A stretch of 64,000 nucleotides of DNA from Nostoc sp. JL33 (GTDB taxonomy: Bacteria; Cyanobacteriota; Cyanobacteriia; Cyanobacteriales; Nostocaceae): contig NZ_JABXKP010000064.1 of NCBI RefSeq assembly GCF_017114985.1, positions 186,001 to 250,000 on the forward strand, in the 5' to 3' direction. Positions 37,301-38,056 of this stretch are shown piece after piece; positions within the stretch are counted from its first letter, which is position 1, and each line of letters begins with the position of its first letter. The notes under the pieces are model-generated. The model did not search any database, was not told the DNA's origin, and was given only the letters and a program-made list of their open reading frames with translations. Both the position numbers and the translations under genes were made by a program.

Positions 37301-37587
37301 TCGAAGCTCCAGAATATCGCCAAGTTAATATTGAAGCATTAATCGAATTAGCTGCGATCGCTGCTAATAATCCTAAGTTGCAAATTGAAGAATATATCGT
37401 GTTGGATGTCTTAATTGGTCATGCAGTGCGATTGGCATGGTTAGAAAATCATAATCATCGCAGCGATCGCTATGATGAGGATAAGGCGAGTGCGTGGCGA
37501 TCGTTTTACAACACCTCTCCTAGAGATTGCGCTAGTTATATTTTGAAGGCGTTGAGGTTCTTGACGGAATTTGTGAAGGATTTTTAA
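34381..37587 (+). CDS. glycoside hydrolase family 15-like (phosphorylase kinase alpha-like) protein
   Basis: This 1068-residue protein has the (alpha/alpha)6 glucoamylase-like catalytic region: [20 protein letters not shown] and [20 protein letters not shown] near the start, [20 protein letters not shown], and later [20 protein letters not shown]. The C-terminal 400 residues resemble the helical tail of phosphorylase kinase alpha/beta chains, as in other cyanobacterial GH15 entries. It may act in glycogen or glucan metabolism. The stop lies at the first bases of an inverted-repeat cassette, so its last codons could have been altered by that insertion. Confidence 0.85.
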   Translation: [1068 protein letters not shown]

Positions 37588-38056
37588 ACGCAAAGTAGCG
37601 CAGAGGGAAACGCAGAGGAACGCAGAGGATGAGAGAGAATGAGTTGAGTGGGGTGATTATTGGGTGTGCGATGAGGGTGCATACTGCTTTGGGGCCTGGT
37701 TTGTTGGAGTCGGCTTATGAGGTGTGCTTGGATTATGAGTTGAAGAAAGCCGGATTGAATGTTGGTAAGCAAATTCCATTGCCTTTGGTTTACCAAGATG
37801 TGCAATTGGAATGTGTTTATCGATTAGATTTGATAGTCGAAAATAAAGTAATTGTAGAGATTAAATCTGTAGAATCCTTCCACCCGATTCACTCCGTTCA
37901 ACTCCTAACCTATCTCAAACTAGCAAACTGCAAACTAGGTCTTCTGCTCAACTTCAACGTCCTCCACCTCAAAGAAGGCATCAAACGCGTAGCCAACAAC
38001 CTCTAACTCTGACTCCGCGTTCCTCTGCGCTTCCCTCCGCGTTCCTTTGCGTTAAA
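37582..38056. mobile_element. inverted-repeat-flanked cassette carrying a GxxExxY gene
   Basis: The left arm begins TTTTTAAACGCAAAG at 37582 and runs through GCGCAGAGGGAAACGCAGAG to about 37629. The right arm, reversed from 38056, reads TTTTTAACGCAAAG then GAACGCGGAGGGAAGCGCAG. Over about 46 bp there are roughly six differences. Only one gene, GxxExxY, lies between. The left arm overlaps the GH15 stop; the right arm meets the DUF1232 stop. The same CGCAGAGGAACGCAGAG wording is common around GxxExxY genes in other genomes as I recall. Mobility is inference. Confidence 0.6.
37629..38006 (+). CDS. GxxExxY (PDDEXK_3) nuclease-like protein
   Basis: This 125-residue protein has the defining GPGLLESAYE (GxxExxY) motif and a PD-(D/E)XK-like core: YRLDLIVENKVIVEIKSVES, where Asp, Glu and Lys are placed as in the nuclease fold, then VQLLTYLKLANCKLGLLLNF. 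The family is widespread, has no proven function, and is often scattered as solo genes. The start ATG 37629 is inside the left inverted repeat, so the repeat supplies the translation start context. Confidence 0.9.
   Translation: MRENELSGVIIGCAMRVHTALGPGLLESAYEVCLDYELKKAGLNVGKQIPLPLVYQDVQLECVYRLDLIVENKVIVEIKSVESFHPIHSVQLLTYLKLANCKLGLLLNFNVLHLKEGIKRVANNL

Follow-up and report, generated by a model that had tools for sequence, protein, structure and literature searches.

The GxxExxY gene of the window (the whole 64,000-nucleotide stretch analysed here, G000:C29:186001-250000, from the 7.1-Mb genome G000) appears to be one member of a widespread repeat-plus-nuclease system. According to this reading, to which a probability of roughly 0.7 was assigned, the protein would recognise the unit of a short repeat array and cut the arrays, and repair would copy them. 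A small predicted RecB/Cas4-type nuclease is bordered by inverted arrays, and further arrays, which lack the gene, occur at many places in the genome, for the most part away from long open frames. Residues 7 and 8 of the N-terminal helix would set A or G at position 5 of the unit. The nuclease would most likely nick or cut at its arrays, and repair would then use another copy as the template for array sequence, or at times for an entire cassette of arms plus gene; in this way arrays would persist, be exchanged and slowly gain in number. Binding, cleavage, repair-coupled copying and spreading are steps that we infer from sequence comparison.

Architecture of the window locus

Two arms of 57 nt (37582-37638 and 38002-38058) were paired in inverted orientation with 81% complementarity. 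Their best gapped pairing score was 66, whereas the downstream flank, dinucleotide-shuffled 2,000 times, reached at most 35; the arms are not random. Each arm comprised four CGCRRAG units at a spacing of 10/12/10, mirrored between the two sides, and a single open reading frame lay between them, as the initial annotation had described. That annotation had also bounded the arms by the stop codons of the neighbouring genes, which is nearly correct: the left arm takes in the final codon and the stop of the GH15/KPBB_C gene, but the right arm ends 1 nt short of the stop codon of DUF1232 (38060-38062 on the minus strand). The gene start, previously placed inside the left arm, is an ATG directly after the last left-arm unit; the inverted repeat itself does reach approximately 10 nt into the open reading frame. 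As hairpins, the two arms folded about as well as shuffled sequences (z 0.08 and −0.28). Rfam gave no match in 37000-38700. Coordinates are collected in Table 1.

Table 1. Features of the GxxExxY locus and its neighbours, in window coordinates
Feature	Position	Strand	Evidence
Left arm: TTTTAAA plus four CGCRRAG units (CGCAAAG at 37589; CGCAGAG at 37599, 37611 and 37621; spacing 10/12/10)	37582..37628	+	Unit pattern; inverted pairing 66 vs shuffle maximum 35
GxxExxY gene, 125 aa, predicted RecB/Cas4-type PD-(D/E)XK (E27, D67, E77xK79, Q91xxxY95)	37629..38006	+	TIGR04256, PF13366, AlphaFold, Foldseek, PADLOC
Codons S7 and G8, protein positions covarying with unit base 5	37647..37652	+	Covariation
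Right arm: inverted array, mirrored units at 38045, 38035, 38023 and 38013	38006..38058	-	Unit pattern; inverted pairing
Upstream neighbour (context, outside the unit): GH15 plus phosphorylase-kinase C-terminal domain, stop inside left arm	34381..37587	+	ORF and domain scan
Downstream neighbour (context, outside the unit): DUF1232	38060..38374	-	ORF and domain scan

The GxxExxY protein

The window protein matched TIGR04256 at 148.3 bits (cut-off 35) and PF13366 at 146.6 bits (cut-off 22), confirming its earlier assignment as a PD-(D/E)XK-like GxxExxY protein. Scans against Pfam and NCBIfam returned PDDEXK_3/GxxExxY alone, with no transposase or strand-transfer domain, in agreement with the initial view that a conventional transposase is absent. 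An AlphaFold model was obtained at pLDDT 93.9. The top five Foldseek matches to this model were Cas4 chains (4r5q, 4ic1; probability 0.96-1.00), at modest statistics (best E 6e-3, TM 0.50-0.57), and the PADLOC Cas4 profile agreed (E 7e-4). A PHROGs search gave weak matches only, and a sequence search of solved structures gave no credible match.

Residues E27, D67, E77, K79, Q91 and Y95 were each conserved in 233 of 234 aligned proteins. They follow the order E, D, ExK, QxxxY, which we take to be the motif names of RecB/Cas4-type PD-(D/E)XK nucleases. Cysteine was absent among the invariant residues. With the core fold and motif residues present in the model, GxxExxY is predicted to be a small nuclease of this type. 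Since the catalytic residues are kept in 233/234 sequences, catalysis is probably under selection. An internal stop was present in 10 of the 234 reading frames.

Inverted arms at other GxxExxY loci

G000 carries only one other strong GxxExxY gene. It is approximately 40% identical to that of the window, belongs to a different subtype and has inverted arms of its own; a tandem repeat, GGAACCGCATTTGCTATATC, lies just downstream of this second unit (L002 1960-2050; G000:C29, ~12.0 kb). Within the taxonomic family, a GxxExxY gene was found in 77 of 99 genomes at five copies or fewer each. Flank pairing was scored at 130 family loci (30 full loci plus 100 fetched), a set from which weak, contig-end and unlisted matches were left out; the partial matches L367-L369 and the contig-end locus L071 lie outside this count. 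Inverted pairing exceeded 30 at 122 of these loci, compared with 1/130 for reversed-only, 11/130 for complement-only and 15/130 for direct-orientation controls at the same loci. Pairing with the downstream flanks of other loci reached 107/650, as expected if the arms are related between loci.

A survey of species genomes was made using the best 80 of 581 GxxExxY loci. These 80 came from Bacteroidota, Planctomycetota, Acidobacteria, Chloroflexi, Verrucomicrobia, Proteobacteria, Ignavibacteria, one archaeal MAG and others; many are from MAGs, so single taxonomic assignments may be wrong. Four loci without 150 bp on both sides were set aside, leaving 76. Flank pairing was above all 285 shifted-flank controls at 52 of these and above the 99th percentile at 59; 17 were not. 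The architecture is thus shared by loci throughout the family and by loci of other phyla, and the view that gene and arms belong together, with the recurrence that the initial annotation had proposed to look for, was upheld.

The unit type varied between loci and tended to agree between both arms of one locus. Types included CGCAAAG, CACAGAG, CGCAATG (L134), CGCAGTG (L161, 52/52 identical), CGCCAAG and CGCAGAT. The DITQKIIGASFE and EITYIINGCAMK clades (e.g. L270, L269) are flanked by other unit types, CACGGATT-like and CAGGATG-like, which the CRC unit pattern mostly left unscored and which may represent additional codes. At L065, L067, L069 and L084 the arm enters the open reading frame; if the starts are true, N-termini such as MNHKDTKTQR and MNADERR are translated repeat array. 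The upstream flank of L139 holds tandem palindromic arm-arm mini-elements with CACAAAG units beside the GxxExxY gene, a REPIN-like form.

Dispersed arrays and presence of the gene

In G000 the unit pattern gave 49 raw matches, and the reversed control none. By hand count the matches correspond to 38 distinct arrays, comprising the four arms of the two strong genes and approximately 34 others. Both G000 subtypes were also found as solo arrays, and single arms, rather than end pairs or doublets, were the usual form among the arrays read. A stop-free frame of more than 450 bp covered 7 of 21 G000 solo arrays, against 126 of 168 control positions. One type-A solo array formed a weak hairpin (z −2.45). 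Arm-arm inverted pairs lacking the gene were seen at L289 (G006) and L290 (G057), and the L289 mini-form folds strongly as single-stranded DNA (z −11).

Arrays were counted in the 99 family genomes with sequence models of the two subtypes, R1 and R2, both of which may match the same array and whose counts at the upper end are lower bounds (at least 66 and at least 62). The median R1+R2 count was 48 in the 77 gene-bearing genomes and 1.5 in the 22 gene-less genomes (p ~1e-10, ignoring kinship). Among eight genera containing both states, seven had more arrays with the gene and one was a 0/0 tie. Arrays also occur in gene-less genomes (R2 counts of 23 in G075, 17 in G042 and 16 in G081), and 5 of the 77 gene-bearing genomes had three R1+R2 arrays or fewer; some have other unit types.

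Exact-flavour counts were made in 80 hand-chosen genomes, 62 with typed genes and 18 of the 22 gene-less genomes; G016 and G082 were left out. For three flavours, 14, 18 and 17 of the 18 gene-less genomes were empty. Genomes whose gene had cognate arms held more copies of CGCCAAG (p=0.0024, a statistic that includes 138 partly MITE-driven copies in G113) and of CGCAGAT (p=0.0002); for CGCAGAG the difference reached only p=0.08. All three values ignore kinship. The lowest count in the subtype B group was 14 after removal of G073, which had been wrongly matched by the pattern. The 80 survey loci, 6 of them cyanobacterial, supplied 483 kb of sequence at a distance of more than 400 bp from the gene; it contained 43 arrays, against 0 in the reversed sequence. 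The initial annotation had regarded arms standing apart from a GxxExxY gene as evidence against its cassette. Such solo arrays do exist, yet they are tied to gene presence, which points to a repeat-plus-nuclease system rather than chance.

Covariation of protein and repeat unit

For covariation, the 234 proteins were aligned together with their arm units, and pairs differing at base 5 (A/G) were compared with identity-matched pairs sharing the base, at the 198 loci that had four units or more. Residue 8 was changed in 95% of the differing pairs, against 44% expected. Residue 7 came second (0.77 vs 0.38), followed after a gap by residue 9 (0.90 vs 0.77). When only the downstream arm was used, which lies over 300 bp away from codon 8 (181 loci), the excesses were 0.45 and 0.29, with 0.11 for the next column; in 200 label permutations of this downstream-arm test the largest excess in any column was 0.10. 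The concern that codons 7-8 might themselves belong to the array is answered by the downstream-arm test, by the overlap of units with these codons at only 13 of 233 loci and by the diversity of the codons there.

G, E or Q at residue 8 accompanied base G; Y and K accompanied base A, as R did for the most part. The rule recurred in two separate Nostocaceae clades (LTG vs LAY; ISG vs IAK), and among 25 phylogenetically independent A/G pairs 17 were concordant, 8 unchanged and none reversed. Residue classes derived from Nostocaceae were applied to 74 non-cyanobacterial loci, 34 of which were not callable (30 with mixed or too few units, 4 with a residue lacking a class). The classes predicted 34 of the 40 callable loci and 6 broke the code, in a test that was not blind because the counts in other phyla were known before the classes were fixed. 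The window protein has S7-G8, and base G in six of its eight arm units is in line with the rule; its G8 subtype is the least strict, with a median of 0.71 G over 30 loci. The AlphaFold model places residues 7 and 8 early in helix 3-21. Unit positions 2 and 4 covaried with the protein only diffusely, and we make no claim for them. From the covariation of residues 7/8 with base 5, the GxxExxY protein very probably reads the repeats.

Histories of the loci

Eighteen related GH15-DUF1232 loci were compared by visual reading of the sequences, and presence of the unit differed between genomes. The whole unit was present in seven (G000, G090, G059, G029, G028, G087, G053), with a stop in the G028 frame, and in truncated form in G006. 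Arm-arm mini-palindromes lacking the gene were found in G046, G084, G063 and G074, traces in G056, G002 and G001, and nothing recognisable in G075, G003 and G088. The variation among orthologous loci that the initial annotation had asked about is real. Among 33 genes of the window subtype, 18 lay beside GH15 and/or DUF1232 and 15 elsewhere.

For the second subtype, the 15 congeneric full-length copies compared all occupied one locus. Their upstream flanks aligned in 15/15 and their downstream flanks, within the 380 bp compared, in 12/15 (not G000, G102, G113); pairwise flank identity was 89-98.6%. The gene and both arms switched together among four flavours: CGCAGAG (G000, G100, G101, G111), CGCCAAG (G006, G090, G099, G103, G113), CGCGAAG (G102, G104, G105) and CGCAAAG (G059, G107, G108; G107 mixed). 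Between G000 and G102 the upstream flank was 98.6% and the protein 72% identical; between G006 and G104 both flanks were 95.8% and the protein 73% identical. Proteins of the CGCAGAG and CGCCAAG flavours are approximately 93-97% identical and differ at the LTG/LAY site.

At orthologous solo sites, all or most units of an array changed in concert; the L020 site, for example, holds three CGCAGAG units in G000 and three CGCCAAG units in G113. That solo arrays simply adopt the flavour of the resident gene was unsupported, as the two often differ at orthologous solo sites: they agreed in G000, G099, G100 and G113 and differed in G101, G104, G107, G108 and G111, and G105 gave one mismatch and one partial match. 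Neither a clean empty solo site nor a target-site duplication was seen at the GH15-DUF1232 and solo sites compared, which came from rather distant genomes. Arrays and cassettes have likely been replaced by copying, for which a cut by the putative enzyme would be the likely trigger.

Other repeats were also encountered at solo sites. At the L008 site the array was replaced by another repeat family, TTAGTTCGTAGT...AGCACTAAAGTGCTGACTACAAGC, in G106 and G108 (L335, L343), and tandem arrays of approximately 20-bp units (GTGCAGGTCAATGCAATAAAG; GCAATGGCATTGTCAGGCGA) were inserted at two solo-repeat sites (L324, L325, L331).

MITE-like elements, plasmids and viruses

In G028, 13 near-identical copies (L274-L286) of a 115-bp element, TATAGCG...CGCTATA, enclose a type-B array; here a MITE-like element has acquired an array. 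A MITE-like element of another kind, 92-93 bp long (TAGGACTTACGC...GCGTAAGTCCTA), was found in G113 (L374-L403); of the 30 copies sampled, 27 carried a CGCCAAG array, and related copies occur on Nostoc plasmids. We take both to be TA-flanked MITEs of the IS630/Tc1 type. The two bursts were considered as nuclease-driven spread, and this was rejected as the arrays sit inside the MITE-like elements, which inflate array copy numbers in G028 and G113. GxxExxY was rare on plasmids, where a search with the window protein matched 7 of 72,556 records, and a pattern-limited scan of viral contigs returned one GxxExxY locus.

Alternative explanations

The locus might be a conventional small transposon, with the arms as terminal inverted repeats and the gene as a transposase acting by cut-and-paste or copy-and-paste. 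In its favour, a single nuclease gene is enclosed by terminal inverted arms, presence at GH15-DUF1232 is patchy and relatives have gene-less mini-palindromes; certain transposons also use a PD-(D/E)XK nuclease (TnsA). We consider it improbable. The two strong G000 copies are too dissimilar to be recent duplicates, single arms instead of end pairs prevail among the G000 arrays read, and the Pfam and NCBIfam scans speak against a transposase. The related suggestion in the initial annotation, that the unit is self-spreading, was likewise unsupported: the 15 congeneric second-subtype copies persist at one locus, plasmid and viral records are few, no target duplication or clean empty solo site was seen at the sites compared, and two bursts proved to be MITE-like elements. 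The stable place, divergent copies, scarcity in plasmid and viral records and lack of target duplications at those sites argue against a freely hopping transposon.

Positional stability and rarity on plasmids and viral contigs would equally be expected of a host-domesticated site-specific nuclease, which would act on the arrays as landmarks of the chromosome that serve repair, replication or the marking of gene ends, with no selfish spread. The strong constraint on the catalytic residues and a modelled fold nearest to Cas4- and exonuclease-type nucleases are in keeping with such a role, which we regard as possible but doubtful. Its presence is patchy within genera, several divergent subtypes occur per genome, loss happens with no obvious replacement and subtypes are exchanged at one locus; a selfish or addictive element fits these features better. 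Autoregulation only, with the arrays as operators of their own gene and the other copies as decayed relics of lost genes, is very unlikely. The upstream arm does abut the start codon and relics with arm remnants occur at the GH15 locus, but an equal inverted array stands downstream and dozens of arrays per genome far exceed the number of genes. Finally, the gene could by coincidence be flanked by two copies of a dispersed repeat that has nothing to do with it and whose family is common in G000; this is refuted by recurrence at most GxxExxY loci read and by the match of unit type between arms and with the protein, and its probability is negligible.

Relation to known systems

The organisation of the proposed repeat-plus-nuclease system has a precedent in REPtrons (RAYT plus REP). 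These are described (PMC8266576, PMC3116915) as a nuclease gene bordered by inverted copies of dispersed short repeats, with few, divergent and stable copies and with enzyme and repeat co-varying. The GxxExxY system is similar in its bordering inverted repeats, its dispersed extragenic copies in the same genome, its co-evolution of enzyme and repeat (correlational here) and the occurrence of REPIN-like arm-arm mini-forms (L289, L139). It differs in two features by which REPtrons are defined, the enzyme (RecB/Cas4-type PD-(D/E)XK by prediction, as against an HUH Y1 transposase) and the repeat (three to four direct units with no hairpin in the window arms, as against a palindrome), and also in the single arrays, instead of doublets, that are usual in the G000 loci read.

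The predicted fold and the motif order are shared with Cas4, RecB and lambda-exonuclease-type nucleases. Unlike these, GxxExxY is only 125 aa, stands alone, has no invariant Cys and is tied to its own arrays, and its neighbours at the window locus are not cas genes. Insertion sequences with MITEs have inverted ends and gene-less forms in common with the GxxExxY unit, which differs from them in having no transposase domain, no target duplication at the sites compared, a stable position and single-arm copies. The MITE-like elements of G028 and G113 are separate from the GxxExxY system. A homing endonuclease cuts a gene-less allele and is copied into it; the cassette exchange at one locus would fit this, with cleavage putative.

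Elhai is said to have described the cyanobacterial SDR/STRR repeat families in 2008. Small dispersed repeats and STRR are short intergenic repeats in relatives of Nostoc, as are the GxxExxY arrays, which are set beside them by description and not by sequence. We know of no nuclease partner for SDR/STRR. The TAACTGA direct repeats (PMC4679880) have a different unit.

Among 5.39 million open full-text papers, the name GxxExxY was mentioned in 2, each time incidentally, consistent with the initial statement that the family has no known role. PF13366/TIGR04256 appeared there only in a listing, and PDDEXK_3 and the six unit strings gave nothing. Among titles and the beginnings of abstracts in the open literature, which excludes most subscription papers and bioRxiv preprints, none linked such a nuclease with dispersed repeats. 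To our knowledge, no repeat-mobilising kind includes such an enzyme or such a repeat.

Significance

The GxxExxY family probably reads and helps to maintain a class of bacterial intergenic repeats. We give about even odds to a broader proposal, that GxxExxY proteins are the sequence-specific nucleases behind pan-prokaryotic intergenic heptad-array repeats (CGCAGAG, CACAGAG, CGCAAAG, CGCCAAG, CGCAGAT and others), with a simple code in the first helix (residue 8 being G or E where the base is G, and K, R or Y where it is A) and with conversion and spread of arrays driven by cutting and repair, a system that would have evolved independently of REP/RAYT. A widespread bacterial family for which no role had been found (PF13366) would thereby acquire a probable substrate, a DNA element as its partner and a prediction of specificity at one residue. 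The short intergenic repeats scattered in cyanobacterial genomes, which recur near the gene in other phyla, would gain a candidate enzyme. If true, the puzzle of REP sequences would have a second solution, of independent origin, and the family would supply a set of small natural proteins that read DNA by a simple code.
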